Positions 1,358 through 37,735 of a DNA stretch of 64,000 nt are shown piece by piece. Origin of the DNA: Tubiluchus corallicola (Eukaryota; Priapulida; Priapulimorpha; Priapulimorphida; Tubiluchidae). The translations under genes and the position numbers were made by a program. The stretch lies in assembly GCA_030141605.1 (NCBI GenBank), contig JAQGDQ010000053.1, forward strand, positions 62,001-126,000, read 5' to 3'. Each line of letters opens with the position of its first letter. The stretch's first letter is position 1. Under the pieces are notes generated by a model that saw only the letters and a list, made by a program, of their open reading frames with translations, was not told the DNA's origin and did no database searches.

Positions 1358-1404
<47 letters not shown>
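1358..1404. repeat. (TA)n microsatellite
   Basis: An uninterrupted alternating TA run of about 47 bp. Confidence 0.95.
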
Positions 1405-1408
<4 letters not shown>

Positions 1409-1934: not shown

Positions 1935-2124
1935 AAAGAAAAGCTTGTTTTTAGAGTCTTATTTTTTAACTATTACATCCTGCTTGTGAACTTTTTGCAA
2001 TGTCTGGCTCCCGGACAATGACACATTTCCGCTAGTGTGTCATACCATCTTACAGTTGGTGGTGTCAGTAGACAATAATGTAATTTTAATCATTATAAAA
2101 TTCGTTCATTTTGTTCCTGTAATA

Positions 2125-3763
2125 TTACAAATGCCTAAAATTTTGTTGGTCCCATTCATGTACTGAACAACAATCGTTCTTGAATTTCATTCGTGTGCAA
2201 GTATCATGTAACAAACACTGGCAATAACCTTGCAAAACTTACGTTTGACACATTCTCCTATGTGGTCTACAGTTAAGTTACCATAACCGGGAAATGATGC
2301 TGTGCATTGGAGATCACAAAGGTTACCATAAGTGTACCCGTCACTACCACATATTGGATCAAATTCATCTGGACAATCACATGGATCTGGTCCTTCTACA
2401 AAAAATATGGTGTGATTCCAACTGCTAATTAAGTACAATGAATAAATGCAGGTATCTCAATCTATATCTAATTAAATAAAAAAGTTAGATTATAGTTTAT
2501 ATAGTAAGTCTGGACAATTATCATAACACTTGGAAGTAATAATTAATCATAATTCTTATGGGCAGTAGGAATGTAAAATTAACACCTGTAGAATTAAAAA
2601 ATAATACACTGTTTACCTGGATGTGTGTCATCACATTCACCTTCATGGGCAACTAAGAGGTTTGTGTTGTCTGAAAATTAAAATAAAACTATAAGATAAA
2701 ACAGACTATTTGCCTTATAGACAATACAAATAGGACAGATACTTAGCTATTTTTAAGCTTAACTGCCTAGCTGTATGAATGAAAAAAAACAGATGGTATA
2801 AATTGCAGACCTTCACTTATTATAAATAACATCTGTTGGTGACAATCTACTGCACACACCTAGGTCAGATATACGTTCATAAATCAGGAAATATGTGTAT
2901 AATGAAAAGGTTGTAAATCATGTAAGTTTGCTACTATTAATAGAACTAGGCAAGGTAGCATGCTGTCGGGTATCCTGTTCACAATTTATGATCTTTAATC
3001 GAGCTTCAAAAATTTAAGTATGTTAAATGTATTTACTGGGGCACTAGATTACGCTGAGGATGCAGCAATTCTCTCTCCATATCTGTCTTTCTGTATAACT
3101 GAAGTTAATAAATTCTAATTGAGTTTGACACACTATAATAAATAACTGGAAAATGGTACAAAACGTAATGGGACAGGTGACCATCACTGTTCAAAGTTCC
3201 CAAGTTTATGAAAGAAAGGAAACCTTGATCTACAAACACAGAAAAATTGCCAGTGTGCTGCACAGACAGAGAACATAACATGTTACCAAGTCTAGCACAT
3301 TCGAGCTTGCACGGGTTTTTGTAAGTGACACCATCTGATCCACACAGAGGATGATTATCATTGTCTTCATCATTATCGCAGTCACAACCTAGAAGAATAT
3401 GGCTCGCTCCAGTTAGAGATATAAGACTGATAAATAAATTACCAGTTCAAACTTGCAACAAAAACCAGGAAAGAAAAGAATTATATAAACTTATTATGGA
3501 AAAATAATTATTTAAAAAAATCTAAGGACAAACTGACTAACAGCAAAGAAAAACAACTAAACCAAATAACAAAATGTTGTGTAATCTGCTCACCATCAGC
3601 ATCTGGACTGACACATTCTCCATAATAATCTACTGTAACATTTTCCTTGTCTGAAATTTTTAATGAAAGAATATCAAATGTTATACTAAAATGCATTACT
3701 AAAAGTAGGCATTTTGGCATTTTAATTCTTCTTGGTAACTCTATACAGCCTTTTGCGTATTAC

Positions 3764-3809
<46 letters not shown>

Positions 3810-11912: not shown

Positions 11913-14900
11913 TTATTGGACAGTGCTTTCGTTCTCAGGTTTACTTATTGAGCCTGACATGTCGGTTAATCCTAGGAAATTCCTAATTATATCTGCATAA
12001 TATTGACCAAATACAGCTCGATTATGATCGACAAGCCTCAAGAATTGTCCACACACTTGCATCAACTCTTTGTCCATTGTAGCCAATCCTGCTGGGACTT
12101 TGACTGGACTGGCTGTCGTTGACATTGCAACACTCCGAATAAAGTCAGTCACTCGAGAAGCTGTGCCATATAAATAAAAATTTAAAGATACTTATAACTA
12201 ATCAGAAATGGGATAAAATAACTTATTTCATTACAAAACATAAGCAAAGAACTTACAAAACATAAGCCATTGTACGTAGCTTTAGGGTATTGACTGATTT
12301 TTGAGCTGTTATGATCACATGCCACTCAGCTATTTCTTTTGTCTTATACATATTTTAGTAATCACAGTTGCAAGCCTGTTTATGGCAGTTTGACAACACA
12401 GAATTTAGTTAGTCAATGGATCAATGAGTGTTAGGAAAATTACTTCAGGATAGATTTGCCTGACATACTGCTGCCAACTATTTCTCTCACTGACAGAGAA
12501 TGTACATGTCCACCAGTTCAGTCCAGTATCTCATCTCAAAACACCTTATAGCAAGTAAGATTCCCAGTCCTATCTAGGCCATTCAACATTGGTAAACCTT
12601 GCAGCTGATTCCTTGGGCTCGATTTTTCATAGAGTTCGTACACAAAAACTTACGAAGCTCATAAAAACATTCATAAGTGCCATTTTACAAACTTTCTAGT
12701 GAAATTATGCAAAAGTTCGTAGTTATGAAGCTTGAAAAATCTCACTCAAGCTTCAGATCTTTCGTAAAAACGAACTTGTGAAAAAAGCATTCATAAGATT
12801 GTTGGCAATCTTGTCCTTACACTTTTGCTTACTGTGTGATAAACTTTACAATAAAACTTGTTATTTATCTACACATTTATTTACACATAAAAAAGTCTGG
12901 CTAAAAATAGTGTGCAGCAGCTTCTGCATTCACCAGATGTTTAATAAATCGCATGCTGCACATAACTGACATGTCTATGCTGTGAGAGTGAGTAAAGTGT
13001 GAGAAAATTGCAGCAACTTATTCATGACTCACTTGCCTTGTATAAGAAATGAATTGAAATGACTTACAAATAACTTTGTAGACTGGATGTTCGTCTGAGC
13101 CAAGTTCACTTATTTGACCTTTTAATGCAGTTTCTTGTTCTTCTGATAAACTTTTGTATCCGTGTTCATTCAGGCATTTATTAACTTCTTTTGCAATTAG
13201 ACTCGACAGACCCAGCAGCGTGCTTGACTTTTCACTGTTTCAAAAATAAGTAAAAGATTTTTAACATACATCAATTTCACTACCCCGGTACACAACAAGT
13301 GTAAATACAAGCCAAAAACTATTGCTCAAAAACAAATGCTAAGAGAACATGTACAGTATTTTAATACACATAGCACAACTGATGGCAAAGCCAATAAACA
13401 CTATATTAAAATGTTGTAACTGTCTTTAATAACACATATTAAGAATGGTGCACCACAAAAGGTAAATAATTAATCAGGACGTATTCATATTTCACAAATC
13501 TTAACTTTGATTTACCATTTCTATGTAGAGAAGAGGCCAAATGCTTTTCTGTCCTGTTATAAAATTATTTATACGGTTAACAAAGCAAGTGACGCAATAT
13601 ATTTTAAGTTTGCTGTACTGCAAACACTACAAGGCCATCTTAACAGGATCTGTATTGTCTCTGAAGGCTCAGCTTCTCTTTAATTTTCCACACTTGAAAT
13701 TGCTGAAACAACTTTTTGAATTTTGCTGGCCTATCTGCCTAGGTGCAAAATTTAAACACATTTCACTGTAAAATGATGATAATTAATAAAAACTGACAAA
13801 CACAACAGACAAGCGATGCTGTATCGCTTGATTGTTAAGCGTCTTGCAACAATGTGGGAACTTATTGCTATACACTCTACAGTCTTAATGCGCGTTCTAC
13901 TCGTGTTAAATTTTTTACTTATGATACATTATGTGAAACTAGGCATAGAATTACATTTATTTTTTTAAACAATATATACACTTTATATGCCCAATTCAAG
14001 TGCTGTTTACACCATAAGAAATAGCAGCAAAAGGACTAAGAATTTTACACAAAGGGTTTATTGGATAAGTTCGGCTTTATGTACTTAATGCCTACTTGGC
14101 ACTGCATGTTGCTGTAATAAATTACCATTAAAGCATGTACTCATTGTTAAGCAAGGACTTAACTCTATCTCAATGTTAAAAGATTATTTTACCTTTCTGG
14201 GGTATCTGTCAGCACAATAGTAATTTTGTCCTTCAGTTTTTCCTTAAAGGAAGATATACCTGAAATGGCTCCACCCACTGTATTATAAGTAACCAATAAA
14301 ACTGAAGCCACTAACTTAATGTGACTTGTTTTATCTCGCAAGCCCATAAACCGGCCTTGATCCATAAGCAATGTCTGAAAAAGCATTACTTAAAAATTTA
14401 GAACAGCTATCTAAATGAAAAAAGAAAATGCAACCAGATAACAAGGTGCTCATAAAATGGTTAACTGCTACACTTAAACAGCTAACATTTTTTTCAACAA
14501 CTCTGATCCCTGCTAACAAAAGGCTATTAATTTTTATCCCAATGTGAGTTCAAACATTGTCATTGTCTATTTTACTACAGAGTTAAAAATTAGTACAACT
14601 ATCACAGTTCATGCTTAACAACTTGGTTACCTCGGGAAAGAAATGTTTTATGTCCCATACAAGCAAATCCAAATAGCATTGGTTTAATATGCTTGCTGGA
14701 CTAATAGTAGTGGTTATTTCTGCTGCAGTAGCTCCCTCTACTTCAGACTCTAATGTTTTTAGTTTCTCAAATCCACGTTGTAGCCACATTCGAGTGTACT
14801 GAAGCCCATCTGAAATATAAACATAAAAAATACATGTACAGCATATGAAACAATTATTATTAGCTAATAACTATATCCATCACAATAGCACTGTTGATGT

Positions 14901-17900
14901 TCATAAAAAATAATATAATAAACACTAAAATGAAAAATATATTTTTTGAATAAACATTAACATACTAAAGAAGTATTTCTACCCAATAACGAGTTATTAA
15001 AGAATCATTATTCACATAATGTACTCTGTTATAACCTGTAGTTGAATAAAATGGGATGAACGATTTTTTCATTGTTTGGGAAAATATAAAGCACCTAACT
15101 CACCAAATGCATAACTGTCATACCACTTGCTGCTTATAATGGCAATACCACTAAAAACCACGTAATGCATAAAAGTCAGAAGAAAAACAAAAATGTGACG
15201 AATCTGTGAGTCTATTTGTAAAAATAAGTAATAGATAACTACAATGTCATGTTAATTAAAAGGTAAATTAAGTTGCAACAAAGGCTAATTTACAAAAAAA
15301 ACTGCACGGTAAAAATATCTAAATTTACAATTAGTGCAATACCGAAATATAGTTTTACATTTGACTACCTGTTTGAGTTTCCAAAAATTCCTTAAATTTT
15401 TGCTTTTCATACTCGACGCCATGCAGTTGAATTTGAGGTCGTACCTGCTGCAATGTGAAATTAGCCATGTCCAATTTCATCTTGTCAATTAACTCAAAAA
15501 TTCCTCTGCAAAAATATAAGTAAACAAATAAGCCTTCAAAAGTTAAAATTTAAAATAATGCAAAATTCTTCCCCGAGCTGATACTCTAACATTATTGCTT
15601 TACCTTTGGTTAGAACTTAAAGAACGTGCAAAAAAATTTGTTTGTATAATTTTAAATTAGCAAAAAGTGCATTGTATAGAAGCGTGGTAAATATAAAAAA
15701 CTACAGTAGGGATGCATTAGAAAGCATCCAATAATCATTTTTAATAAGGAACTGAATCATAATAATGTTTATTGATCAAGGACCACAACCACTCATTAAT
15801 GTCTTTTCACTCATCAATAATTTGTCTAATTTGCATACTAATCATACAAAATAATAATAATAAAAAAACCATCGATTCTCCAATCTGCAACTAATGATCA
15901 ACTACTAAAAACAACAAGATTTCAATCTACATTAATAAAGCACTTGTCAAAGTTACTGTAATAACGTACACTACATAAGTATACATAACACTCATTTCAT
16001 GCTTACTTGTACAAAGCAACAACATCTCGAGTTTGTTTTAAAGCAAGTATTTGTTCATCTCGTATAGGTGCACATAGCTTAGACATAACAGTCAGCACAA
16101 ACTGTGCATAATGGTCAATGTCTATGGCATTATTAATAGCTTTTTGTTGTATTAATTCCATATCTAAAGCTTCCTCGATTAAATTCTGAAGAGTGACATG
16201 CTGGGGTAGCAGCAAATCCAGTAGAACCTATAACAAAAAATTATATTATTTTGAATCCATTTTGTGCAGGATTTAGTCAAACTTTTAGTTTCAAAGACAT
16301 CCTGAAAGAAAGACCATTATCTCAATATATTTAGATTAATGTTCTGCAAAAATGCAGAATATTCTTGATTATTGTTCTTGCCTTGGTAGGGAAATTTCTA
16401 TTTTAAGAATTGGAAATAATTCAAAAACTTATTAGATTTAAAAACTTAAAATTTGCTGGGTGGATACCAGCTGATTAAACAATTTCTGCCTGCATCTTAG
16501 TTTTACAACTTAAGTCAAAGTATTGTTTCATAAAAAAAATTTGCATCTGTTGCATCCTACACAGATTATTTTTGTGCCAAGAATTTTTTCTGGAAAACAT
16601 CTACAGTGTGTCAGTGAATGTAGCCTACAACAAACAACAGGTTTCACCAGAAGAATTTCCAAAAACTGAAAAAAGCAGACTGGCACAATCCATAAAAGTT
16701 AAAAATACATCGAAATGTACACTAGCTTTTCGTAGTCAAAATGCGAAGATATGAAATGCATGAATGATAATTAAAACTCAAAGCACATTCAGTGTTATCA
16801 AGAAATTGTTTTCTACTTTCTTGCATACCACTCCCAGGGCAAAATCTGTAAACTAATTAACTGCTAATGAGCTAACTGAAACCGGGTAGCAGCAAAATAG
16901 TTAAAAGAAAACAGAAGCTTGGAAAATTTGAAGATGACTTATTTCCTCAATATCCTTATAGCATGGGAAAGATGATCTGTAAGCAAAACAGAGGAGTGCT
17001 CAGAGCATTATTGGACTCTGGACATTCACATGGTGCACAATCAGTTTGAAGGTGCACTGAACAGAAAGCATGATACAAAGAAAATTCAGCGGCTGGTCCT
17101 GAAACCATGTAATGTAACAACACCATGCACATGTTGAGTTGTGCCACCAGCTCTACATAATACCAAATGCCACAAGAAGGAGCAAGACTTTTAGTTTGTT
17201 ATCAGGGTGCTTAATCTTAATATTCTTACATACAGTGAAATATCAGCATGTAACCAGATTATCCACTAGCAATAGTTAACGTCAAAATATTTTGTAAGCT
17301 TTGTAAAGACACAAATGTAATATGGTTGGAACATAGTAAAGGAAAAACCAGTTCTTTGGGGAAGATGAGCTTATTTTAATATCTGAGAAAATGTTAAGAA
17401 GTTTCACAAATAAAACTGTGATAAGCACCTTTTGTAATTAGTAAAATCAGTTTAAAGTCGCTATCACTTCACGATTGAGCGGGGCGCTCATTTTGAACGA
17501 AAAATGGCATTACCCAGTTACAATACAGCATATCTAGTAAACTCTTATCCAGGCTCACTGAGAGCAGGGGTCAGCCGGGGTGGCGCTTGAGGGCCCACAA
17601 ACCAAACGAGGGTGTACCCTTGCTTAATTGTGCACAGCAAACAAAAGAAAATGTGTGCTTTGGTTAAAATTTAAAAAACTGTCCATAAGTCAGCATAATT
17701 AAAACTGTAGGTTATTCTGCTTAAAGTAAAATGTATCATAAATTCTAAAAACAAATGCTAAGTATCATTTAAATCGTCTGTAAAATGTTCAAGAAATACT
17801 GAAAATTTAATTCTATAAGCCCTCGCCTACTTCTCTGCCGAAAAAGTGGTACTGCAATTGTGGACTTAGTTTGAGTATCATTATTTGGAAAATTGGAGGA

Positions 17901-20732
17901 GAGGGGCCAAGTTTCCTCTTGCCCAGGGACCCAAAGATTCTCTTGGCAGCCCTGCTCTTATCAAATAAATGCTAATCCCTGCCTGGTGCCTAAACAAAAT
18001 TTTTTACACCTGCAGTTACAATTATCAATCCAAAATGTTAAACTAGAGATTATCTAATACTATATTTCTTTAATTTCTATATATCTCTAATACTTTTTGA
18101 TAAATCCTGTTGTCCAGTATTTAATCAAAATCAGTTATAATCTCGACAAAATAACAGAATAATTATTTTAACAAGCTAAAATTGAACTCCATGAGCTAAT
18201 TAGCCTGCCCGACACCTACTATATCTCACAAAATTGCATGCTTGTCTGGAAATCAAAAAAAATCTGTACATTAGTTATGTACATGTTGTACAGCACTTGC
18301 ACATTTTAAAGTATAATCACATGGATTAAAGCTATGTAAGCATTTTAAAAGGTTGCTAATTAATATAATGACTAATTTTTGCATAAACACAGTTAAGCAC
18401 AACACTAGAATAGTGGAATTTCTGAGTGAACTGCAGAAGATTTGTTACACGTACCTTCACAGCATTTATGCTGTCCACCAGCTTATGTAGTTTTTTTCAA
18501 ATATCCCCGCAGCGAGGTTCGTTTGGTTGGTGATAAGAATGACTTAAATTTCTTTTGCATTTTTAAGCATGGCCTTTTATGCGCATGTAGTAATTTCAAT
18601 ATTTTTAATTGTATACTAAAATTCAGTGAATGTTGTCTGAAGGTTTGTTTTGCCCGTAATAATATACATTCTTCGAATATAAATTGTCCCAAGAGAAACT
18701 ATTGTATCTGGTAGTGAGGATTTTTGAATGGATAACTAGGTATGAAGAAAACATCAGTCTGGGTTTTTGAGAGAAATTTGCATTAGCTCTGACAATATCA
18801 TAATTTTTCACAAGCTGAAAGCTGGGCACACACATAAAATAAAACCACAGAGCCCCAAAGCAATAAAACTCTCAACAAACTAAATAGCAAGATCTTGAAT
18901 TTTTGGAAACTGTAGGTCATTTATCAAAAAGTGACACCAGAAACTGTAAGTATACTAACTAAACTTGGTACCCAGATTGCAACATATGCCCTCACAGGTC
19001 TTATTCCTTCCATGCCAATTTAAATTAAAACAAAATTCAGACCTCTCAACTCTTACTGTTCTACTGTTAATTTCACAATTTTGACTCATACATTTCCTTA
19101 TGATCTCATGACATACCTTTGCTTTCTTGCCGTAAATAAAAAAAACCAATAAATTTTGATAAGTCTAAAGAAGTATGAAAGTACTTTTAAGCAAAATTAG
19201 TTTAGAATGCTGCCACATCCAAGTAGCCTCTTTAATAACTCATTTTGCATCAAAAACGACTGTGATCAACAACCAATGTGTGATGTTATTTTACTGTTTT
19301 GAACTAGAAAAGTTATTAAAAAACTGTTTTAACCTTTAATTATATCAGTTCAACTTTTTTTGAGACAAAAATTCAGTGCCATAGCGAATATAACCTGGCT
19401 TTACATTCGCGATTTTCCAGGATGTATAAATTTTTTAACTTTTTGAAAAATCTACAGTTTTGCTTTCTCTTAGGGCGTTGAGAGGTCCGGAATTTAAACA
19501 TTTTTACGGCTACATGGTAAGCACGGCATAGTACTTTTCAATCGTACTACATTCTTTATGGTTCCATGCCTTTTCTTTTATTTGCTTTTTTATACAGAAT
19601 AATTTATCAAGTGATTAGGCATATTTAACATTATGGAGATCTTAAAACTACTTTACAAATTCATTGTTTTGTTTAGCTACCAATGGTTGATTATTATTGC
19701 ACCTGATCATAGTTTATGCATGCAGTAACTAGGTAAAAAATATTCTGGAATACTTTACAAATAATAAAGAAAATTAAAATCTGTCCAGGTCACCTGTTTT
19801 ATCTCATGAAGCAACTTAATAGCATGCTCATAATTTGGTGGTTCCTCTGCAAGTTGCTCCTTTAATACATCCCAAAAAGCTTTATGCATGACTTCTTTAA
19901 CTTGTTTCTGAAAACTGAATTAAATCACTTACATGTCAATTAATGAAAATAGAGTTGGACTCAAAGTAAATTATTTGCAGATTTAATGGCACACGTGGTA
20001 AAAAATTATCTGTAAAGATATTAAACTATTTGAAAAATAGTGAATAGATAAAACCAATTTCATTTAATGTTTCAACTTCTTTACAGTCGTGAGAAAACAC
20101 GCAATTTTAGCTATTCTTTTAAATTTAGGTTTACAGTCAAAAGATCAACTGCCTCAAATGGCTTTGTCTTTGAAAAACAAAGGAAAAATCATAGCTGCAT
20201 TTTACTTTTTATTTACCTGTTTTCTGGTGGTTGTAGGCTTTCCAATTTGAAATCATTGTCTAGAGCAATCTCATGAGCTAAAGCCATGTTTGTTACTCCG
20301 TTTGCAACTTGCATCAATTCTTCAAAACTGATAAACTTCGGTGGGGAAGCTATAAATTTCATAACAATTTAAATTTCAATTGCAAATTCATAACAAATTA
20401 ACAGAAATGAATAAATAAAAATAATTTGCTACTAAAACAAACACACTCTAATTCAATGATAAACATAAAAATAGAAAAAAGATACCTGCTAGTGTATAAG
20501 GTGGTGCAGTAGGAGGAGTATTTAACCTTTGGCGCTTTGTCAAAGAGGATGAAGAAGAACTGTTTGGCTGAATGTCACTTCCAGCATGCTTTTTTACCAG
20601 CCTATTACTATTCGCTTGTGATCCACTGCTGTTACCTTCAGATTGAGGGTGGTCAGTCTTGCTACTTTTATTGAGTTTTTCCTCTTTTGATTCACTGTCT
20701 TTCCCTTTGGCACTGACATCTGATGGATCCAT
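11913..20732 (-). CDS. TCP11L1: TCP11-family protein, TCP11L1-like
   Basis: Complete minus-strand gene of nine coding exons: 20732-20486, 20349-20217, 19914-19794, 16227-16007, 15505-15369, 14809-14631, 14374-14193, 13234-13068 and 12160-11913. They total 1,635 nt, a 544-residue protein; human TCP11L1 is about 509. Residues 1-82 are Ser/Lys-rich and likely disordered. The TCP11 domain fills the rest. Diagnostic pieces are [47 protein letters not shown], a conserved LxMDQxRF segment at the exon 6/7 junction, and [20 protein letters not shown] near the C-terminus. Exon 3 is taken from the upstream AG (19914) because only that choice keeps phase. Family role is poorly known; TCP11 itself is linked to sperm function. 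Intron 3 (16228-19793) carries a transposon with a nested second one. The start is close to a LINE fragment. Head-to-head neighbour is DEPDC7. Confidence 0.93.
12619..12745. repeat. Imperfect inverted repeat in TCP11L1 intron
   Basis: Arms of about 33 bp (12619-12651 and 12713-12745) share GATTTTTCA at the outer ends and AACTT at the inner ends, with roughly three quarters identity by eye, around a 61-bp centre. It could be a decayed MITE in the last intron of TCP11L1. Confidence 0.4.
17337..18659. mobile_element. DNA transposon family X, copy A (interrupted)
   Basis: This segment aligns over its whole length with 45161-46030. Shared blocks include TTTAAAGTCGC, CCAAAATGTTAAAC, GAACAGAATAATTATTTTA-type text, TTTCTGAGTGAACT and TTGCATTTTTAAGC. 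The left end TAAAGGAAAAACCA matches the perfect 15-bp terminal repeat of the other copy; the right end is decayed (AGGTTTGTTTTGCCCGTA). Without the nested element at 17550-17954 and one target copy it is about 910 bp. No open frame long enough for a transposase remains, so it is non-autonomous or a decayed relic. Confidence 0.8.
17550..17954. mobile_element. hAT-like element nested in copy A
   Basis: A 405-bp unit bounded by perfect 8-bp direct repeats CTCTTATC at 17542-17549 and 17955-17962. Its ends read CAGGCTCAC on the left and, inverted, CAGGGCTGCC on the right, fitting short hAT-type terminal repeats. An internal CAGGGGTCAGC near the left end also looks hAT-like. Copy B has a single CACTTATC at the matching place and no insert, so B shows the empty site. 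The unit is clearly more G+C-rich than its surroundings and has no transposase. Confidence 0.8.
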
Positions 20733-20789
20733 TTTAACCTGTGCTAAACAACACCTAATAACAGGTCACTTGTAAGTCAAGCTGCTAAA

Positions 20790-21300
20790 TAACTAACAGT
20801 TTACTACACAACAGCATTAATATGGTCGAAGTAAAAGCAAATGCTAAGAATTCATTTATAAGAAATTTAATATGTCCCATGTGCAATAGCGAATTAATAG
20901 CAACAACAGAACATTTATTTACTTGTAGCAAATATAAAAGGATTAGAGAAAATCTAGGTAAAGTCTCAACAGAGGATGTTAAAAGCTGTTGTAGTGAAAA
21001 TTTTTTGAAAGCATCCAAATATGTAAATGATTGTTTGTTTTATAGGGAAAGCATTTTGAAAGAACTTGGTGAAATAAATTTTGAAGAAGACAAAAGCATA
21101 AAGGTGCTACAGTGTTAAGAACCCCTTGAATCGATTTTATCGTTAGCCCATACAAGTGGAGAGGGCTGAGAGAAACCACAGCGCTGCTGGCTTTGGTATG
21201 CCTTGAATGGGCGATAGTGGTCAACTAATTAAAGTACCGGTCATAAGTAAGAACTTAAAAAAAAGACTTAAAGAAGGGGGATCGGACTAAGGTCCTAACT
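20790..21300 (+). mobile_element. LINE 3' fragment with CCHC-like motif
   Basis: The open frame 20822-21116 contains CPMCNSELIATTEHLFTCSK, a Cys-x2-Cys, His, Cys pattern typical of the C-terminal end of some LINE ORF2 proteins. It is followed by about 180 bp of richer G+C non-coding sequence like a LINE 3' UTR. The 5' part is absent. It lies only 58-90 bp upstream of the TCP11L1 start codon, on the opposite strand. An ordinary host exon is less likely because no partner exons were found. Confidence 0.5.
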
Positions 21301-23527
21301 AGATAGTAACTATTATACGACTAGTTTAGTAAAGTAGTATTATTTTTCTTATTACTATTAGTATTACTAGTACTACCGAAACTGTGAACAAATGTACTAC
21401 GTAATATCTAATGGAAAATATAGTAAAAGTAATCATAAAAACAACATACGAAACCCGTAATTCAACAAAACACTTAAAACAGCTGCACAAGCAGGCATCA
21501 GTGTTTGTATTTATTATTTAGAAAACGAACGCAAAATATGCAGTAACTTAATGTAGTAGACCACTCCTCGTCTTCAAAGCCTTCTCTGCGCCCACGCGGT
21601 TAGCCCAGCAGACGGGCCAAACAGTAGGGGTGAGTATTCTCTATCACAGAGCGAAATCGAATGAAATCGAATTTGTGATTTATGAATTCGAATTGAACCG
21701 AATTTCAGTATTTCGAATTAGAATCGAATTCGAGTTGAGTTTGAAAGATAAACAAGTTTTCGAACCACCAATTCAATTCAGTTTTGTTTGCACAAATACA
21801 TACAATGTACATTGGCAAAACAATACATGTCAAATACTACGTAAACCGAAAAAAATACAATAGGCTGTGTGTAAGGGTATTTTCATAGCCAAATGTTAAG
21901 ATATGGTATACTGATACAAAAATCACAATTGCATAAAAATTGTATAATTTAGCAATGAAAAAAGAAAAATGACTTAAAAGTAGTAGGTATCTGTGCCAGC
22001 TTTTTAAATGAAAGATTATAAAAATAACGTAATGATAGTTGAAAATAATTTGGTTAGAGTCTGCTGCGAAAGTGCTGATTTCTTCTTTCCAAGGAATCAG
22101 AGATGTGCCAAAAGTTTCTTGCACTGATGTCATAGATTGTAACCAGAAAGCCTACAAAAACAAAGAAACAGTATTAAAACAATTAAAAACAATAAACACC
22201 AGTAAAAATTGATTATACAAAGATCATGGATACTTGCTCGGTAAAACCACTGATAATTTAAACACTTCAGCACTGATCCTTTGAGATAAATGCACTTGGA
22301 GCATTGCAGCGAGTAGGGAGTCCTGGCATGGGAAGGTGAACAGAATCATGTTCCTGAATGTATGATTCATGGATGATGATGCTGAAAACTACTTATTATT
22401 TGTTTAAAAAGTGTGCACAGAAATTATGTTAAACTGTGCTAACTGCATGATGTTTCAAACGTTTTAATGATAAAGAATGTATGTGGTTGAAGTGCTGAAT
22501 CAATCGAAATCGAACTAAAAAATTTTGTTCAAACATTGAAAAACCCTTGTTTTTGGACAAGTTTCTCGTTTGTTCATTAATTTTTTTTTGTTAATTGTTA
22601 ATGAATTTATTATTGTCATTATTATTTATTCTAGTTAAAGCTTTGCTTGAAAATGAAACTTTGTAAGTATGTAGGCCTGGATCGGGGAACGACTTTGATT
22701 GGATACTCGTTGACCTTGTATGAGTGGCTCAAGGTCTAAGGCCATTTTTCTCAAAAGCTTCGAAAGCTATCTCTTCCTACAGTTGTAACAGCATCATACT
22801 GAAATTCAAGTGGGTGCAGAGTTCTGGTATATGGGGCTAAATTTGTTTTGTGGGTGCATAGGGCTGAAGAGGAACAAGCCTCTATAGGCGAAGGTCTACA
22901 AAATGTGATATTTCTTAAAAAAAAGTGTTCAACTACCTAATGTAGTATACATTGAAAATCTATCATGAAACAAACTAAACTGTGGTAATCAAATAAAATG
23001 ATGGACATTAGAGTAAACATTTACTATTATAATGTAAGAAAGTAATAGGAAGGATGAACATGCAAGTATCACATTAATATTCAGTTATATAAATACACAA
23101 AAATTCATTAACAAGAATTTCAACATGTTGGTCTGAATGTATAAGTACATAATGTTTTATTGACCTGTACGTGCTTGAGATCTGCATAGCAGTTACAAAT
23201 GACATAATTATAATGACCAAAATAATTTGCTGCCAGGCTTCTGGGTTGTTAACCAACTTAATTGCCTTTAGATTGTGTTCTCTTTATATGTTTAATAAGA
23301 TCATGAATCTAACACCATTATGTTCTCGTTGAACGTATGTATTTTACAAACAAATTGTCACATAAAACTGTGTCTTGCAATTACAGCTATTTTTTTTTTA
23401 AAAAATCTCTATGTTGGATAACTGTTCAAATGTTGCTTTTTTGTACACAGTTTGGAATTTTATATTGTAGTATCAGATGATAATTATTTGTCACCTTATT
23501 TGTCACATAGACTATCTACGTTTGCAG
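21301..23527. other. Intergenic, TCP11L1 to DEPDC7
   Basis: The central part of the divergent interval between the two head-to-head genes. A G+C-rich, CpG-containing block lies at 21558-21624. A segment rich in AATCGAAT-type words lies at 21650-21740, with a similar word at 22500-22515; this looks like decayed transposon end sequence. No gene was recognised. Confidence 0.5.
21558..21624. promoter_or_regulatory. CpG-containing block, possible promoter
   Basis: A short G+C-rich island (includes CTGCGCCCACGCGG and CAGACGGGCC) in otherwise AT-rich intergenic DNA, about 0.83-0.89 kb upstream of the TCP11L1 start codon. It could be a promoter or untranslated first exon of TCP11L1, or transposon sequence. 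There is no direct proof. Confidence 0.22.
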
Positions 23528-24318
23528 ATGAAACGTGAGTAACTTTATCGCATGATTAATACATGCAACTCAACTATTTAAAAAAGAAAGGCTTGTGAAC
23601 CGACATTTATAAACAGCATACACCCTGCTGTATGCACGAGAGTCGTTGAGTTAAGTGGCACAACTGCATTACTGGGCTTAATCTTAATTCTGAAAGTTAC
23701 ATACCATGCTGAACAAAGGGTAAAGATACAGGAAAATTATCATGGATTTGTGTCATTTTCAGTCAACAGATATAGCCACGGTTTTCTAAAAAATCAAGGT
23801 ATGGCCTTAGGTCGCCAAATTTCTATTGGTTTAAGTTATGAAACTTAAAACTTACTGTTCTAGTTTGAATTAACATCATCGTTTTACATGTGTGCCATTT
23901 TGCTTTAATGTACTTGTTTTATTCTGGAACATCCTGTCTTAACATTTTATCTGTAATTTTCAGCTGATGATCCCCGCCATGGTGAAAGCTTCTGAATCAA
24001 TCATTGTACAATCACTGGTAAAGGGCATTATGTTTTATATGTTAAAGTGCATGTACTTCAAAACAAAGGGCTTACACAAAACCTTTCAAGTTGACTGTTT
24101 GTACGTTTTGTTCAGAAACTAAACTTTTAATTCAGAGTGTTTTTAATTATAAACGCACTATAACTCACAGTTTCACACAATAACCTTAATTGTTTCAGAG
24201 AAAGAGAGAATTCCTCAAAAAAGGGGCTCTCCTTCTTTGGCACTTGGAAAAATTACAAATACTGAAAGCATGCTTGGTGTTATCGATTGCCATTTATATG
24301 AACCATTTGAATTTACAG
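23528..24318 (+). other. Candidate alternative 5' exons of DEPDC7
   Basis: Two possible coding pieces: 23528-23534 (ATG AAA C, followed by GTGAGT) and 24199-24318 (after TTGTTTCAG, ending before GTGCGT). Joined, they give a 42-residue open frame ending in phase 1, exactly the phase of DEPDC7 exon 2 at 28296. The peptide starts MKQKERIPQKRGSPSLALG and ends with LYEPFEFTG before PFKATRIW. Both introns have GT-AG ends. This would give a longer, different N-terminus than exon 24810-24879. Chance open frame remains possible, since 120 nt is short and I recognise no homologue for the peptide. Confidence 0.4.
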
Positions 24319-24433
24319 GTGCGTGAATCATGTGCCAGTTATGAATACTAACAAGGTTGAGCTAAAACTGCAGAATTTCTTTGTAGATGTCTTATCTTCA
24401 TTTACTTATAATTATATTTATGGTTTGGAGTCA

Positions 24434-24568
24434 TTAACCCCAGTCCCGAACATTTCTTCCTGATCCAAACCCCAGTCTTGACCTAAAACTCAATTAGCAT
24501 CCCGAACCCTCATCTTGAACGAAGTACTGATCCAGACCCGAACCTCAATCTCATCCCGAACCTCAAAC
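24434..24568. repeat. Degenerate CCCGAACC minisatellite
   Basis: About six imperfect copies of a unit like ATCCCGAACCTCAATCT, with variants CAGTCCCGAAC, CCAGACCCGAACC and CATCCCGAACCCTC. Unit length varies around 17-25 bp. It lies between the two candidate first exons of DEPDC7. Confidence 0.6.
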
Positions 24569-24809
24569 ACATCTAATACAAAGTTTACAAACCTGGAAAG
24601 AAATTCGTGAACATTTGCAATTGTTTCCATTTTTTAATTGATATTAGAATAATCAAAAATTTAATACAGTATTAACTGTCTTGTAGCTTTCGTTATAGGT
24701 CAAGTCGCGCTGTTGCTTTGAAATCAGCTACGAAATGTGATAAACCACTTCGTAACTGCAATTTTATCAATTATCCGCAAGGAGTTCTGGGATATGATAT
24801 TTAAATTCA

Positions 24810-27800
24810 ATGGCGGCTACGGTAAAGTTGATTAGAATTGATTCTGGAAGAAAATTTGAGGACTCGAAGCGTTATTCAGGTAATTAAACCTATTGTCAGT
24901 GAAAAACATTAGGTAATTCTGACAAAACTACATTCTTATGAGAAATTCTAACAGAAGAAACCATACTCATTGGGTAGATTGCAATGTAAGATTCTTATTC
25001 CTAGAAAACCTGGTACCTTTATTTAACAAGTGATTAATTATGGCCTATATTTCCGTCATGTATGTTTCTAAGTGTCTTGAATCTCTCTTGTGGGATGACG
25101 TATTGAATTTCCTGTTACACTGTGGCAGTTTATTGATAATCAGCACGTTTCATTACCACAGCTTTCCACTGTAGCAAATCTTGAATGCCTAAATAATTGG
25201 TCCCCATTTTTTATGAACCTTCCCTCCGCTCTATTGATTTTGGAAACAGCATTTTTAAATGGTGTAACTACTTCCTGGAGAAATAGTATCCAGTAATCAG
25301 TATTCTGCCACTCTCCGTTACACGTTTTTCTATTAATATTATAAATCTACAGTAATTGTATTTTGTGGATGAAAATAAATAAATTGAATTGAATTAACCA
25401 GTGGTATTCCCCAAGGAACTTTGTCGGGACCTTATGGTTTTCTCATTTTCATCAATGACATTACTGATTTTGCATCCCCTGACACAGACACATTCACACA
25501 CATATATATATAAATACCACTATTTGTTGAGGATATTAAACCTTATCATCCAATTAGAGATACCTCTGGTCGAGGGACATTATTACAAACAGACTTGTCT
25601 GAAATTGAACGATGGTGTGACAACTGGTCAATGTCCCTCAAATGCAATAAATGCAGCAGCAGCGCACTTTTATTCATTCTAATTAAACAAGGCCTTATTA
25701 CCTGAGAGATGGTATTATTGAAGAAGAATCAGTTGTATGTGATTTGGGAGTATTAGTCTCAAATAAGCCGAAGTAGAGCTCTCATATCAGGGGATATAAT
25801 TGAGCATAGTAGAACTTTCTCAAGCTAGTAGATCCACTGGAATGATAAAAGGCTACATTTCATCATGTAGTGGAAATGTTATTGTACCAATGTACAAAGC
25901 TGTAGTTGGACTAATATGTAAGTATTTATGCGTTGCTTGGTTGTGTCTTTATGTTACTCTAAAGAATGCTTTAATAGAAAGAATGCACTTGAGATGTATT
26001 AGTCTGGCCTCTAACATTCAACCAGACTGTATCTTCACTTGAACAATGTCGTCACCTATATAGATCTTATTAATTGCTATGAAGTCATCAATGGTAGTTC
26101 AAACTTACATAGTGATAATTTTTTTCTTTACCACGATGTGATTTGCGTGGACATAACTCTAAATTATTTGTACTTGTATACTCTTGCACTAATATTAGAG
26201 CCCACTTCTTCTCTCCTCGCGTTATGGAATTCATTTAATGATGAAATGTTGAAGCATCAAATCTGACTCAGTTTCGAAAATCACTGAGAAGACGCCGTCA
26301 AAAACCATATTTATGGTTTGGTCTCTTAGACTTCACCAGCAAGTATAAACTACTTTTCAAAAAACTTGTTGTTGGTGCCATTCATATAGATATACAGCGT
26401 GTACTTTGGCTGTTAAAATACCACAGTGTTCAATAGAAAGTTGAGTTAATGGTAAAAAGATGGGGTACATTACCTGTGTCAAGGTTTGATATTCGATATT
26501 CAATATTGAACCACATTCTGAAGTTGGTATGGTAATAAATTTCCTATTTTGACCAAAGCCGGCTTCATATGTTCAAACCATTCAGTGTTCGTAATAGACT
26601 CGAATGCAGTACTCAATATCGAACCAGAAGCTGGTTTCATAGTTAAACTGTTGAAGATACGAAGAAGCTTCAATCATGCTTCCTCTTACAAGTAACTCTC
26701 ATTTCCGCATTTCCCCATAGTTTATATATTCGACACAAGCACTTCAAGTTTAAGGAACTAGCTGGTGTAAACCAAACAAAAGTTTGATACATTTCAGCAA
26801 AAACACGTGTTATTCATTAGCTCATTAGCTATTTAACGAGTAGAGATACGGGAATCTGCAGTTACAAATCTTCCCATTTCTGTATTCCCAAATTTTTATC
26901 CGAGTTTCACATTTGGCTGTTATTTCATGTTTAAAGTGCCAGTGTAACCAAAGAAAAGTTTGTAATGCCTCAGTAAAAACACATAATTATTCTCCAGCTC
27001 ATTGATTATTTTACGATATAGGTACCTGGTAGTTACAACTTTCCTGTTCCCGCATTCTCACACTTTTTGCAAGTTTCACAGTAGCACAAGCATTTCATAT
27101 TTAAGGTGCTGGTGTAACCAAAGAAAAAATTCTAATGCCTCATCTAACATAAATGTTGTTCACTGGCTCATGAGCTATGTAATGATATTTTTACATGCCC
27201 ATTACGAACTTCCCCATTCCCATATTCCCGCACTCGACATGTGGTGTTCGAAACTAAATGTGCAGAGACTATGTCTTAGATATGTTACTCATGTTAATTG
27301 GGATAATGTGTCTATGCCAAGGACAACGCCAAGACACAATTACTTTGGTTAGCATCCGCAAGTTGTAATGTACTCATTTGGCTTTTTAATTTTAAGCATG
27401 CACGGCTACACTTGTATGTACATGTGGCTCAACACTTAGGCAGTTTTCATAGCACTCAGATAGTAAGTGTTAGTCCACTTAGAAAAAACACTTTTGTTTC
27501 ATAATAATAATTATTATTTGCTTGTAAGGAGTTATAACAAATCAGGATGCAGGATCATTGAAATGTGTAACATTTTTGCAGTGGAAATTACAGTGCAAAT
27601 ATCATTGTTTGTTCATGTTTGAGAAAGTCCAGTCAATTTGTAAATTTTGCAACATCAACTATAACTAGTTTTTATCTACAACTGCATCTGCAGTTTAAAT
27701 AAACACTGTGAAAGAAAACACCCAAAAACGTTGGGATATTTTTGTATAAAAAAGACATTGATTTTTGTATAAAAAGACATCAGGAGTGTATGGTTGCCTG

Positions 27801-30800
27801 TCGATTTTTTTTATCAAAGAACATACTGTGTGCAAAATAGAACAAATTGCAGTGCAATTCGTCTGGTTATGTTCACGCTGAAAATACAATATTTAGAGAG
27901 GGCTTTTTAAGAGCTTTTCTGGACCATTACATAATACAATATATCTAAATATGCTGTTGCAACAGCTATACACTAATCCTGTGTTACAACCTAATTTTAG
28001 TTCTACCCTTGAAAATAATAAAATGCCAACATATTCAGCTAATCCATAACCCATACATATACTGTGAACCATAACTGAAAATTAGTACCAATCGGTTACT
28101 GTGTTTGTCTTTGCCAAAAGGTCTTTTGTTACCTTTTGATTGGCCCTACCCATGCATTTTCCTAAATTACCTAATGATCTTTTAGTACTACTTTATGCTG
28201 TCATTTTGCTCGAGCTCATTGGTGTCGTTAAGCGAGGCCGTAAAACGCTAAATTACCTTCGTGAAAGTCTCTAATAACTTACTTCGTGTTCGCAGGTCCG
28301 TTTAAAGCTACTCGCATTTGGAACGATATTATTGATCACTTGAAAGAAGGTGTAGAAGTAAAACGAAGATGGCACAAAATTAGAAAATATGACAACTGCT
28401 TTACAGGTATAATACATTTGGCACTTTGAATGGTGTTCCTGCTTTACAAATTACATGTATGTATAGATGTCATTATTAATAAGTAGTGCTAGTCTGGTAA
28501 TTTTGTTGCAACAGCATAATTTGGCATTAAATTTGTTTTTCATTATTTTTTTTTAATTTGTTTAACTTGCTTATTAGTTGATTTGCTCATATTCCTATTC
28601 TGAAAATTAAAAGTTTTTTTTATAAACTTTACAGGACAGGATGCTGTTAATGTAATATTGCAGTATCTGCAGGAGGACTCTGCAAATTTTGGGTGTAATG
28701 TGTCAAGAGATAATGCAGTGAAGGTATGAAAATAACGTAAAAATAGAAAGTCATGAAGACAGTCCTTGTTAAATTCCATTCTCTAAAGAAATCATCGAGC
28801 TGAGGCACAGAGCATTAAAAATTAAAAGAACTGCATTGTGTACCTATCAACATACATGCATATCTGGTAAAAGGAGCACGACACATTTTTAAGTTATACC
28901 CTAAAATAATCTAACGTATAAAATATTGAAAAAGAACATAATTATTTTTAAAGAATGACATACATGAAATAATTATTGCCACGGTAGTTTAATTTTACAG
29001 CTGCTCCTTGTTACATGCATTTGGGCATGCACTAGTTCTAGCTGCACAAAGATGCACTGTACTTCCCAGTTCAATTATGATGTGGCACACACACACACAC
29101 ACACTTATGGTGAATTTGCATGATGCCATAGTGGTAAACTTGGAATTTAAATTTTTAATCTGAAATTTGCCCAGTTCTTGTGTATCACAATGTTGTGCAG
29201 TAGTACTGTATTTCAGTTTTCACTTGCAAACACGTACAACACACTAGTGGAAAGTTTGTGCTATTACAAAATTATGTTCAATTCTGATATCATCACTTGC
29301 AGTACCCACTGGCAGTTTATTAAGTTTTTAAGCTATTATTTAATTATCAGAAACACTGTGGTATTACTGTAGACATTAATATGTATCCTTTTTACCGCAC
29401 TTCAAAATAGAGCAGGATATGGAAAATCCACTTGCTTTCCTTTAACACCAGTTTCTATGTATGTGACTGGGTAACAGGCAAATGTGTGCATGGTGCAATA
29501 TAATTTTGAAGAAACCTCATTAAGAATAACTCATTGCATGTGCATTTGTTTTTTTAGCTGTGTCAGGCATTTATGGATTACTCTGTGTTTGAACCAATTT
29601 GCAACGCTGACTCACCGAAGAAGTTTCATGATGCCGGAACAAAATTCTATAGGTTTATCAACATAGAAGAAGAGGAAAATCGTATTTATCACCCAGGAGA
29701 AAAATTAAGGCATGTCAATCTTTTAAATTTCATTTGTCTAAAATAAATTTATAATATTTAAATATTTATGAATATTTTCAGATTTTATCTCATTAGACGA
29801 AAGGTTTTTAGTTTTTAGTTTACATTTTTGTCTAAGTTGTCTTGAACTGAGCGTACAAGTTTCATTCACCTTAGTTAGTTAATTTGTGTTTCACTTGCAG
29901 TTTTTTACCGAAAATTCAATAAATGTGTTATGTGTTAGGATGAGAACATCTACAGGCATGGAATTTGATGATGAAAACAGTGGCACATATAAATCAAGAA
30001 CTATTCATCCAAATGATAGGCTGCTTTGCAGTATTAATGAAAAGTCTGAAGAACGGCTACCATCTATTCCTCTTCATCAGCAATCCAACTACAATGTTTG
30101 GCTCTCCAAACAAACTGACCAGAAACACTATAGTCGGACTTCTGACACTCAGACGATTGCAGATACACATTGTAACAACAACATTGCGAATTTACGTGTC
30201 CTGAATGAAAGAGAGATGGGTTTTTTACGCAAATCAATTAGACGGTTGACTCATCCTGAGACATATACTGACCAAAGCAAGAAAACTATGGTGAAACACA
30301 TCTCCTTGCCAACATTTCTGCCTAATGATGTGCAGTATAGTCTTCCCTTAAATGGTATGTATGTTTGCCTGTCTTTTTCTTTTCATGTCAGCTTGTTCGT
30401 AAGTCTGTAAATGTGTATGTATAAGTGAATGATATGTACTGAACATCCAGCAGCACCTTTGTAAATCTTTGTAAACATTTTCTGTGCTGCTGCACTTGAC
30501 ATTATAAAAGTCTAATTCACTTATGTAAAGAATGCAGACTATACAACTTATTGTAGCTACAATACTATATTTTGCTGTAATTTTGGATTAACTGTTGCAG
30601 TTATATGTGATGTATGGCGGGAAGTGGCTCTCCTGCGATTGCTGCTTATTGTAGAAATTCCAATTCTTGAAGGCATCATGAGTGACAATATCTTTAGCAC
30701 AGAGTCTTCTAGCATGCCGTCTGATGCTTCCAGTGCAGTGCTTCGGAAGCACAACAGTTGTTCGGCCGTCTCTTCAAGTGGGTATGTTCAAAATCAGTTT

Positions 30801-33393
30801 ATGTACTCTTTTGTAGTATTGCAATGTTATGTATAGCAGAACAGTTTTAACCAATTAACTGATTTGTAGGTGAAACTTAGTGAAAATTCGGCTAAACAAC
30901 CTGTCAAAATCCAATTCTTTCTGACCTATCAAAACCATATTTTGTTTGACTTGATATACCATTGTACTTTTATCTATTTAAAGCATTTCAGCTGTAGAGT
31001 ATATACTAAAAGTTGCACATATTTCATAGAATTTATCTATTTACATTTAAAAGTCAAAACATAGACAGTATTGCATAGACAATCAGACACAGGTGAATAA
31101 TGCAGACAGACAATTGCACTTAATGCAGAAAAAATATCAGGTTTTGTGAACAATTGTGTTATGAATGCCACTAATGATAATAAGTTAACTGATGACTTGA
31201 TGTTTTTTTTTTATTTGTTTGCAGCTATATTGACTTGTGGACACGAGCTGCAGTAACTTGCCTAGACAACATTGACTGTATGTATTTGCTTCCTAAAACA
31301 TACAGTATAAATGATAGTACAAACTATAAATTGAAACTGTTCAAGCTCATATCTGACGGTTACAGTAGACAAAAAGAGCCACTGATAAATGGCCGCATGT
31401 TCGATGTCTTTCTTGTAATATATACTTCTCTTCTTGAAAAGCATAAGGAAAGTGCTGCCATTGATGCCATACAGCTGGCTGTTCTGTTGTTGCCTAGTCA
31501 CCAAAGGGAGCAACTGAAACATCTTATGGATTTCCTTGGTGTGGTCATCAGAGACAAATGGACTCAGTTGAGTAAAAACGTGTGTATATTAATAATTTGT
31601 TTAACATCTTTAAATGCTAATATCTTGAAAAACGAATACTTTAGAGCTAGTTATTTGTTACAACTCATGTTAACTCAGGGCTGGCTTTTCTATGTTCGAT
31701 ACTGATGCATTCGTTTGGTATATGAATGATAAGAGTATCCATTGTTACCTTCGGTTTAGTAAATTCTGCAGGGTACGTTTCTTCTACTAACGAAGTTTGT
31801 AAATTGTGACCACTTATTTTTCTTATTAAAGTTAAAATCTGTTATATTTGTTTTAACATTTTTCTGTTTACAACATTTGTTTACAACTAATAACTATTAA
31901 TTTTTTAGTTCTCAAATGAAGAACTTGCCATTAAGGAATTTGCTGACGCGGTCATATGTAATCCTGTTTTGTCAAAGAAGCAAGCAGTCAGATACTTTGG
32001 TAAGCTGTGAACCACTAACAAAAAAATTGACTGATCCACTTTCTTATGCAGTTTACATTCTGCAATGTAAAAATTCCACATTTTTTAAAAATTTGTTTTT
32101 ACTTTTCGTGGTCTGTAAATTTGCATTGTGGTAATCTTATTTTTAGGTTTTATAGCTGCACATGCGGAAGCTATTTTCACCATTCCTCCTGAAGTAGAAG
32201 CACAAGTCCATAAGCAGCTGCTAAAATTATCCAAAGGCAATGATGATGCTGTGCTAGGTAAATTTTCTGTCACAAAATTCTTCTAGATTTTGCAGCTGTT
32301 GGAAATAATAATGACTGCTGCTGCTGAATAAGCTTGGTTTTGTCTGTTTTTGAAAATAACATAAAATCCACTGTTCTGTTTAATGAACAACTTTCTAGTT
32401 TGCACATTTAGTCTTTATGCCTTGTGGTACAAAAATTAACTTAGAGTATGGCAAAATATCGAGACTTGCTTGTCTGAAATAAGATCACTTTTTTTGAAAA
32501 ACATCTGATTCCTTAATTAATATCAGTAATATCAATAGTGTTAAGGAACAGTTTTGATATCAGCTGTACATTCTGTGCCAGGTACGTTGCTAGTCCTGGA
32601 ATTCATTGTTGTTATTCTATTGTTATCACGCCCACTTTAGAGCATATTTTACCAATTTTCTAGTACAATATGTATATACTTGTATTTGTATACTTTCCTG
32701 CATGTAACTAGTCTCAAAAGTGGCGAGTTGTTTCAGCTTATATTTTTTCCCTAATCAATTTTTTGGCGAAAATGTGTGATGAGGTGTGACAGCAGCTTTT
32801 GGGCAAATTATAATTTCCAAAAATAATTTTACTATCGTGTTTTGTATTTTGCAGTCAGTTTTAAAGGCAGCCGATGATCACCCATGATACAGGTTCGAAA
32901 TGAGCTGGAATTTGTGTGGACGTTTTTTAAATGAATTCGTTTATGCCTAAATGGCCAATTTTGTCGTTCGTAAATTTAAAAGTTAAAATCATTTTGAGTT
33001 GTCAGACTGGCCTTCTGAGCTGTGGAAATGCACCTTCATTGCTTTTGGTCTTCTCATTTGCGCTTTGCATTTTCTAAAATCGGCTGTCTCTGTCATAATG
33101 ATGCAAGGTAATTAAGGTGATGTATCAACAAAACTGCAATTATGGCTAGCCACATAAGGAACTACCAAGTACTATAAAAATTATTTATTACAGAAATGGT
33201 TTATTGTGAGCAAATTACAGAGCTGGAATTCGAACATCAACGTGAAGACGCAACTGAAACTGCACTCATTGAACTGATGAATTCCATTATTGACAATACC
33301 AGCATTCCACTGAAAGATAAAAAACAGTGGTTGAAGAAACTGCAGAGGTGTCACCCAGATGTGTTCAGTCGGAACTTCTGTGATATGCTGTAA
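24810..33393 (+). CDS. DEPDC7: DEP-domain protein, DEPDC7 orthologue
   Basis: Complete plus-strand gene. Exons: 24810-24879, 28296-28406, 28635-28723, 29558-29709, 29939-30354, 30601-30781, 31225-31579, 31909-31999, 32147-32257, 33194-33393; 1,776 nt, 591 residues (human about 511). DEP domain at about 25-120: PFKATRIWNDIIDHLKEGVE, then KLCQAFMDYSVFEP and FYRF. A variable linker follows, then VWREVALLRLLLIVEIPILE (about 284-303), a helical RhoGAP-like part, and the end CHPDVFSRNFCDML. The CQAxMDYxVFE and terminal CHPDxF motifs fit DEPDC7 better than DEPDC1A/B. DEP domains bind membranes or GPCR-linked partners; human DEPDC7 is reported to bind CARMA2/3 in NF-kB signalling. Intron 4 begins with GC if the reading AAG/GCATGT is right. 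The stop overlaps a perfect donor word GTAAGT. A poly(A) signal may be at 34467. Intron 1 (3.4 kb) holds LINE and tandem repeats. Confidence 0.92.
25395..26330 (+). mobile_element. Degenerate LINE RT fragment in DEPDC7 intron
   Basis: Plus-strand frames read a reverse-transcriptase core, SGIPQGTLSGPYGFLIFIND, then (shifted) TDLSEIERWCDNWSMSLKC, DLGVLVSNK and a tail LWNSFNDEMLK. This order is the CR1/L2/Jockey-type pattern. Several frameshifts and stops make it dead. Directly upstream, 25365-25394, AATAAATAAATTGAATTGAA looks like the tail of another LINE copy, so this fragment may have landed next to an older one. Same orientation as the host gene. Confidence 0.8.
26680..27240. repeat. Tandem array, unit about 170-177 bp
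   Basis: The word GTGTAACCAAAGAAAA or a near copy starts at 26765 (as GTGTAAACCAAACAAAA), 26942 and 27112, giving periods of 177 and 170. Between these, the same blocks recur in order: AGCTCATT, ACGAT or ACGAGTA, TAGTTACAA, CCCATTCC or TTCCCGCATT, AAGTTTCACA and TTTAAGGTGC. A partial copy precedes the first unit and a shortened one follows. It is satellite-like, diverged, and lies in DEPDC7 intron 1. Confidence 0.8.
29086..29104. repeat. (CA)n microsatellite
   Basis: About ten CA units in DEPDC7 intron 3. Confidence 0.9.
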
Positions 33394-36200: not shown

Positions 36201-36799
36201 TTCAGTGAAATAGGTGTCAAACCGAAAGATAACTAAGAGATAAATTCGAAACTACGAATACAAATTTCTTACTAAATTGAATAGTTGCCGATTAAATAGA
36301 GGCGAAATTTTTTAACTGCAGTGTGCAATGTTTGGCAAACCAAGATTTCAGACGGGAGACTATTTAAAAGCTGACACCATTATGGTGTAAAGAGTTCAAG
36401 CCATATTAAGTTTTGAACCTATTTTGAAAGTAGAAGCCTTTTTTGAGGATATTGTGGAGTATGAATGGACATCGTGTATTTTTAAAAAGTAGTTCTTATA
36501 TATATATGGTAAAGTGCTTGTTTTGTACCTGTACATAAATTAAAGAGTTCCAAACTATATATATCACAAACTTTTAGTATATTTAACTGGTTATACGAAG
36601 GTGTAGCATGTGCTGTGTAATGAGAGAATGTAATTAATTTAACAATTTTGTTTTTGTAAGGTGGTAAGTGGTTGTAGTATATATTGCTTAGTTTTTCCCC
36701 AGCACAGCACGCAGTACTGTAAGTAGGTATACACTAAAGCGTAATATATCATTTTGAGGATAGGCATATTAATAAAGTAACGTTGTTTATTATTTATAA

Positions 36800-37735
36800 A
36801 TGTATTTCGTCAAACCGTAGACAACGAGTAGTAATCAACGGAACGTCTTCTAGATGGTGCTCTGTTTCTAGTAGCGTTCCGCAATGGTCTATACTGGGTC
36901 CCATTTTATTCATACTCTTTGCCAATGATTTGCCAGATTTAGTTATTTTAGAAATTAGTATGTTTGCTCACGACACAAAAATCTATTGTCGAGTTGTGAC
37001 AATAGAAGATTCAGTACATTTACAACAACGTTTATTTGATCTGGAAGCCTGGTCTGAAAAATTGTTATTACAGTTTAATGCTGATAAGTGTGTAGTGTTC
37101 CAGCTTAAAGCTCAAGTTTCATCACATTATTATTTGTCTCTCAGTGAGTTAGCACATGTCTCAGAACATAAAGACCTAAGTGAAATTATACCTAATGATC
37201 TGGAGCTTGCTGCGCATATCACCAACATTAATTTTGCCAGAAGGCAAATCGGATGATTGGATTGATTAAAAGATGTTTTGTTAACCGGGATCCTAAGCAG
37301 GTGTTAACTCTCTACAAAGCTTATGTGCGACCATTATTAGAATATTGTAGTGTAGTATGGTCACCATCATTACAATTTGACATCAAAAGATTCCAGAAAG
37401 TTGAAGATAGATGCCTATGATTATGTTATGCAGCCTGTTTGCGTCCTGAGATTTGTTCACTCCAACAGAGAACAGAAACAGCTGACTTGTATGAGGTATT
37501 GAAGTACATAAATGGAGACAACCGTGTTAGTTGTGATACACTATTTAAGATTGCACCTCTGCTGTCCACTCGTAGTCATTCTAAGAAATTGCATAAACTG
37601 TATGCAAGAACTAATTGTAAAAGTTCATTTTTTTCACACCCCGTAGTGAACAAATGGAATAGTTTGCCAGAAAGAGTGGTTGGTGCACCGAATTTAAACC
37701 TTTTTAAGGAGAGATTGGGGGCTTCACCATAGTCA
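36800..37735 (+). mobile_element. Degenerate LINE RT, CR1/L2/Jockey-like
   Basis: Reads NRRQRVVINGTSS, then SVPQWSILGPILFILFANDL, FAHDTKIY (normally FADDTK; the first catalytic Asp is His), WSEKLLLQFNADKC, LYKAYVRPLLEYCSVVWSP, and the end FFSHPVVNKWNSLPERVV. Frames change once near 37250 and a stop lies near 37420. The 5' half is lost. It is the best preserved LINE remnant of the window and lies in intergenic DNA. Confidence 0.85.

Follow-up and report, generated by a model that had tools for sequence, protein, structure and literature searches.

Two genes whose predicted products look unrelated, a TCP11-domain protein and a DEP-domain protein that also has a RhoGAP-like stretch, lie side by side in Tubiluchus corallicola. 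The locus raises the question of whether this adjacency was inherited from the ancestor shared with vertebrates, and whether regulation or chance could account for it. We analyzed a 64,000-nucleotide stretch of contig C4 (referred to as the window, which contains no Ns) and searched the genome of 343.5 Mb in 2,344 contigs; the comparison covers T. corallicola and two mammals, human and cattle.

Two divergent genes in the window

Splice sites and reading frame gave the following gene models:

11913-20732, minus strand: TCP11-like gene, 9 coding exons, 544 aa
20732-20486, 20349-20217, 19914-19794, 16227-16007, 15505-15369, minus strand: TCP11-like coding exons 1-5
14809-14631, 14374-14193, 13234-13068, 12160-11913, minus strand: TCP11-like coding exons 6-9
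20733-24809, no strand: 4,077-bp interval separating the start codons, with repeat copies at about 20817-21181 and 21769-22208
24810-33393, plus strand: DEPDC4/7-like gene, 10 coding exons, 591 aa
24810-24879, plus strand: putative coding exon 1 of the DEPDC4/7-like gene; its ATG frame joins exon 2 in phase, with GT/AG sites
24810-24879, 28296-28406, 28635-28723, 29558-29709, 29939-30354, plus strand: DEPDC4/7-like coding exons 1-5
30601-30781, 31225-31579, 31909-31999, 32147-32257, 33194-33393, plus strand: DEPDC4/7-like coding exons 6-10

The TCP11-like gene begins with an ATG at 20732, its stop codon ends at 11913, and all eight of its introns are GT-AG. An acceptor-like AG is present 6 nt 5′ of the ATG, so an untranslated exon may lie farther upstream. 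The protein belongs to the TCP11 family: its single match to Pfam Tcp11 (PF05794) is full-length (profile positions 1-435 of 436) and above the curated cut-off of 27 bits (E 2.4e-116, 389.8 bits). The genome-wide search with this family returned five matches, all of them exons of the same gene (five of its nine); no second TCP11 gene was found in that search, although a miss does not prove absence.

The start-codon exon of the DEP gene at 24810-24879 is predicted from frame and splice sites, and one of the nine introns, that after exon 4 (29709), would require a GC donor. The protein matches Pfam DEP (E 7.2e-15, 55.1 bits, cut-off 32.7). Residues 389-450 partially match RhoGAP (E 0.00028, 21.2 bits, below the cut-off of 24.5), spanning profile positions 67-124 of 148, which is the second half of the domain only. 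By eye this region is devoid of the catalytic arginine motif, which is likewise missing from DEPDC1 and DEPDC7. The DEPDC1/4/7 family is characterized by an N-terminal DEP domain, a degenerate RhoGAP-like region and a conserved C-terminal segment. The gene is a member of this family, and its C-terminal part matches both a gene on contig C403 and the provisional DEPDC1/4/7 sequences used below. CARMA2/3 are binding partners of human DEPDC7, which promotes the activation of NF-kappaB (PMC4277425).

The two genes are divergent, head-to-head neighbours with start codons 4,077 bp apart, and positions 11913 and 33393 coincide exactly with their stop-codon ends. The preliminary description of the two genes as adjacent and head to head was confirmed. 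No ncRNA or tRNA was detected in the window by Rfam (gathering thresholds) or ARAGORN.

The pair is flanked by Kazal-domain exons on one side and a TBC-domain gene on the other. The Kazal-inhibitor exons form a long minus-strand array from C4:42001-62000 into window positions 1-8000, perhaps one very large gene; the motif count gave 14 domains in L009, 11 in L007 (C4:42001-62000) and one in the window, where two further frames match Pfam Kazal. At window 55708-62748, plus strand, PF00566 is matched by three frames of the TBC (Rab-GAP) domain gene, in one case with a score under the cut-off, and no Pfam match was seen for a long frame in the same region (61756-62745); we presume that this gene resembles USP6NL. 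Downstream of it, plus-strand exons at C4:126001-136000 (L008) were read by eye as cytosolic HSP90. A reverse transcriptase fragment at window 36738-37253 (PF00078, 8.9e-08) is a retroelement remnant.

The pair in mammals and the neighbouring genes

A list of genes in a human deletion reads EIF3M, CCDC73, PRRG4, QSER1, DEPDC7, TCP11L1, CSTF3, HIPK3 (PMC4876997), and a list for a cattle region reads RCN1, WT1, EIF3M, PRRG4, QSER1, DEPDC7, TCP11L1, CSTF3 (PMC12111605). Neither list is stated to be in map order or gives strands; the two lists agree with each other and are non-alphabetical. A third human list is alphabetical and thus uninformative on order (PMC11126393). The earlier statement that human DEPDC7 and TCP11L1 are neighbours agrees with the printed human and cattle lists, in which they are side by side. 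The same two gene families are therefore adjacent in human and cattle, according to these lists, and in T. corallicola, which makes them an ancient microsyntenic pair in the sense of adjacency in at least two distant lineages. The human genes are taken by us to have the same orientation, at 11p13. On that assumption the arrangements differ: in human and cattle the genes would point in one direction, flanked by QSER1 and CSTF3, while here they are head to head with Kazal and TBC flanks.

Among the papers listed that name DEPDC7 and TCP11L1 together, none is evolutionary by title, and among the papers listed on ancient microsynteny in general no title concerns this pair; the pair list of Irimia 2012 may include it. 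DEPDC4 and TCP11L2 are both, we assume, on human 12q23, and no confirmation was found among the papers listed for the 12q23 copies, one of which is an expression table. The neighbours at 6p21/12q23 are presumed to include UHRF1BP1 and ANKS1.

A larger conserved block around the pair was considered and rejected. CSTF3 is on another contig, all nine PF05843 matches being on C679. No VPS13_N match (for UHRF1BP1) is on C4 among at least 14 in the genome (35 of 2,314 candidates scored), and no PID match (for ANKS1) is on C4 among 11 in the genome; both are weak tests.

The gap between the start codons and the question of shared regulation

Repeats occupy about a fifth of the gap. The DNA search of the genome with the gap sequence found at least 44 matches outside the locus (at least 11 to the first repeat stretch, at least 28 to the second and at least 5 short ones), these counts being lower bounds from 40 of 3,334 candidates scored.

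Nothing in this gap points convincingly to a further coding gene. Codon usage was scored for gap frames of at least 40 codons, and the best value, 0.084, is below the means of the TCP11-like gene (0.101) and the DEP gene (0.090); the score is a weak one, as values for individual TCP11-like exons vary between 0.04 and 0.14 and one TBC-gene exon of the training set has 0.023. Two overlapping frames of 42 and 47 codons on opposite strands at 24482-24633 score 0.084 and 0.072, inside the range of the TCP11-like exons, and read by eye as imperfect simple repeats. Other candidate frames for such a gene were rejected. The stretches 23582-23845 and 24199-24320 look exon-like by eye but do not reach the Pfam cut-off (E 0.054 and 13.4 bits against 26 for one, no match for the other), and frames around them score low by codon usage. 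The frame at 20789-21115 reads by eye as a retroelement C-terminus, reaches no Pfam cut-off and lies mostly inside a repeat.

Shared regulation, raised in the preliminary description, would keep the genes together if an enhancer or promoter region in or beside one of them drives the other. There is precedent in sponge, where enhancer-like marks were reported in adults for 43 of 60 microsyntenic pairs (PMC5429095). In the gap, the start of the DEPDC4/7-like gene lies inside a CpG peak, with an observed/expected ratio of 1.18 at 24501-24900 compared with 0.50 across the window, and a second peak is present at 21251-21900 (1.02-1.35); the two peaks may represent two separate promoters. However, part of the second peak falls within a repeat, and values of 0.97-0.98 are also reached far from either start, at 19251-19650 and 28001-28400. 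Repeats have been inserted in the gap, and neither gene is, to our knowledge, an obvious developmental regulator. Head-to-head pairs are defined by 1 kb between transcription starts (PMC7817982). Pairs with bidirectional promoters have the divergent orientation seen here, but their transcription starts are less than 1 kb apart, whereas the start codons here are separated by 4.1 kb and the orientation is unlike that assumed for human. We consider such regulatory constraint unlikely. With the orientation differing from that taken for human, with repeats in the gap and with CSTF3 elsewhere, positive evidence for shared regulation was not obtained, and to propose it for this pair would be a guess. 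Somewhat less probable still is the fuller version, in which shared cis-regulation would have held the TCP11L and DEPDC4/7 genes together since before the protostome-deuterostome split and vertebrate genome duplication would have copied the pair (DEPDC7-TCP11L1 at 11p13 and DEPDC4/TCP11L2 at 12q23, locations that we assume).

Inheritance or chance

The reading that we prefer, with a probability of roughly 0.75, is that the adjacency was inherited from the common ancestor with vertebrates, with one inversion. A TCP11-family gene and a DEPDC4/7-type gene would have been neighbours in that ancestor, neither lineage would have separated them since, and a single inversion would have turned a tandem arrangement into a head-to-head one or the reverse, given the human strands as we assume them. 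For the pair to survive, nothing more than slow, random breakage under weak or absent constraint would be needed.

Local gene order is scrambled over such distances, and vertebrates are reported to have lost 84% of the microsyntenic blocks gained in the bilaterian ancestor; that ancestor gained 256 new blocks, against 45, 48 or 56 in shuffled genomes (PMC8851819). The blocks in that study need at least three genes, and a pair therefore falls outside the definition. Unrelated genes that are adjacent across distant animals, as here, are known from Isl-Scaper (PMC5429095) and from the bilaterian blocks (PMC8851819). Those cases draw on many genomes and in part on enhancer marks; the TCP11-DEPDC pair is known here from one invertebrate and two mammals.

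The main rival is that the two genes met again by chance in a conserved chromosome: they would have remained on the same ancestral chromosome while its gene order was scrambled, and would happen to be neighbours in both lineages. In 200 simulation runs with complete shuffling of 6,000 orthologues in 29 groups (29 and the gene numbers being assumptions), a mean of 57 conserved adjacencies (range 41-78) was left genome-wide. The orientation, not conserved if the human genes are as assumed, and the location of CSTF3, the tested flank, also fit this explanation. On the other hand, for one named pair the chance of adjacency is about 0.003 within 29 linkage groups and about 1e-4 when the whole genome is shuffled without linkage, and a 64-kb window has room for only a small number of genes, which means that few pairs were on offer. 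A chance re-meeting is on balance improbable, and we retain descent from a common ancestor.

Identity of the DEP gene

Inheritance of the pair depends on which member of its family the DEP gene is. When the genome was searched with the window protein, its own 10 exons and two places on C403 made up the 12 matches, and no better DEPDC4/7 candidate was found in this search. The search with the DEP family gave eight matches elsewhere and missed both the window gene and the C403 gene because introns split their DEP domains; further relatives could therefore be missed as well. The DEP region of the C403 gene (90 aa, two exon pieces joined by eye) scored 91.2 bits against PDB 2ysr (DEPDC1), compared with 45.5 bits for the window protein. 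Judged by its sequence, this one other DEPDC1/4/7-family gene found is DEPDC1.

For the remaining comparisons the human DEPDC1, DEPDC4 and DEPDC7 sequences were provisional versions rather than database records, and the C403 gene was entered only as exon pieces totalling 296 aa, which reduces its summed bits. The DEP domain of the window gene scored 96 bits against DEPDC4, 94 against DEPDC7 and 65 against DEPDC1; its identity was 37.0% to C403 and 35.8% to DEPDC7. DEPDC7 gave 112 + 94 bits (206) with the window gene and 53 + 49 (102) with the shortened C403 entry, and DEPDC4 gave 121 + 97 (218) and 65 + 47 (112), respectively. DEPDC1 gave 177 and 99 bits with C403 and also 120 + 65 with the window gene. 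The best single match of the window gene was its C-terminal part to DEPDC1, with 105 bits against 102 for DEPDC4 and 100 for DEPDC7, and this part fails to separate the three. In an unrooted tree of five rows (the human ones provisional) C403 paired with DEPDC1 (100/100) and DEPDC4 with DEPDC7 (100/99). The window gene was attached between these two groups through a long branch (1.21); measured along the tree, it is closest to DEPDC4 (2.38, others 3.01-3.19).

These sequences are most simply read as making the DEP gene co-orthologous to DEPDC4 and DEPDC7. That it might instead be a third DEPDC1/4/7 branch lost in vertebrates, which would make the shared neighbour a paralogue and not an orthologue, is suggested by its mid-tree position on a long branch and by the nearly equal C-terminal scores, but is quite improbable in view of the DEP-domain scores, the path to DEPDC4 and the want of a better DEPDC4/7 candidate in the genome search. 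With co-orthology the simplest reading and a third branch possible, the name DEPDC7 alone, as first given, is too narrow. It holds in so far as the DEP domain fits DEPDC4/7 over DEPDC1 and the true DEPDC1 is elsewhere; it does not hold in that adjacency fails to single out DEPDC7 over DEPDC4.

Age of the pair

Taking co-orthology and descent as the preferred reading, the age of the pair depends on the position of the animal. Homeodomain matches numbered at least 118 in the genome (150 of 186 candidates scored). Twenty of these places were translated (ranks 1-19 and 21), and nine of them are Hox-type by their motifs: labial/Hox1, proboscipedia/Hox2, Hox3, Hox4/5-like, three central, one posterior and one posterior-like. 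There were also 66 zf-C4 matches, counted exon by exon with some repeated copies. A Hox set together with many nuclear-receptor exons indicates a bilaterian, and the comparison consequently traces the pair back no further than the divergence of this lineage and vertebrates. Taken by themselves, the central and posterior Hox types might hint at a spiralian, whereas the species is a priapulid. The original proposal, that the genes have been linked from an early stage of animal evolution, is not supported; at best the shared pair dates to the bilaterian ancestor.

Other homeobox genes were seen in the same search. Two near-identical homeodomains are located on opposite strands of C2085, 25 kb apart at about 95.8 kb and 70.9 kb (L025, L026); we take the genes to be Msx-type, and they reflect either a recent duplication or an artefact of assembly. 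At C1789:791256-794063 and C1925:306718-309168, open frames 2118 and 1933 codons long have four homeodomain matches each and may be ZFHX-type genes.

Significance of the pair

The TCP11-DEPDC pair can plausibly be read as a remnant of very old gene order, though an ordinary one; it is a new example of a well-known kind and leaves the understanding of such conserved pairs unchanged. If the adjacency was inherited, it would add a marker for gene order in the bilaterian ancestor and would offer a specific locus at which to look for ancient regulatory links between these genes, both of which are poorly understood.
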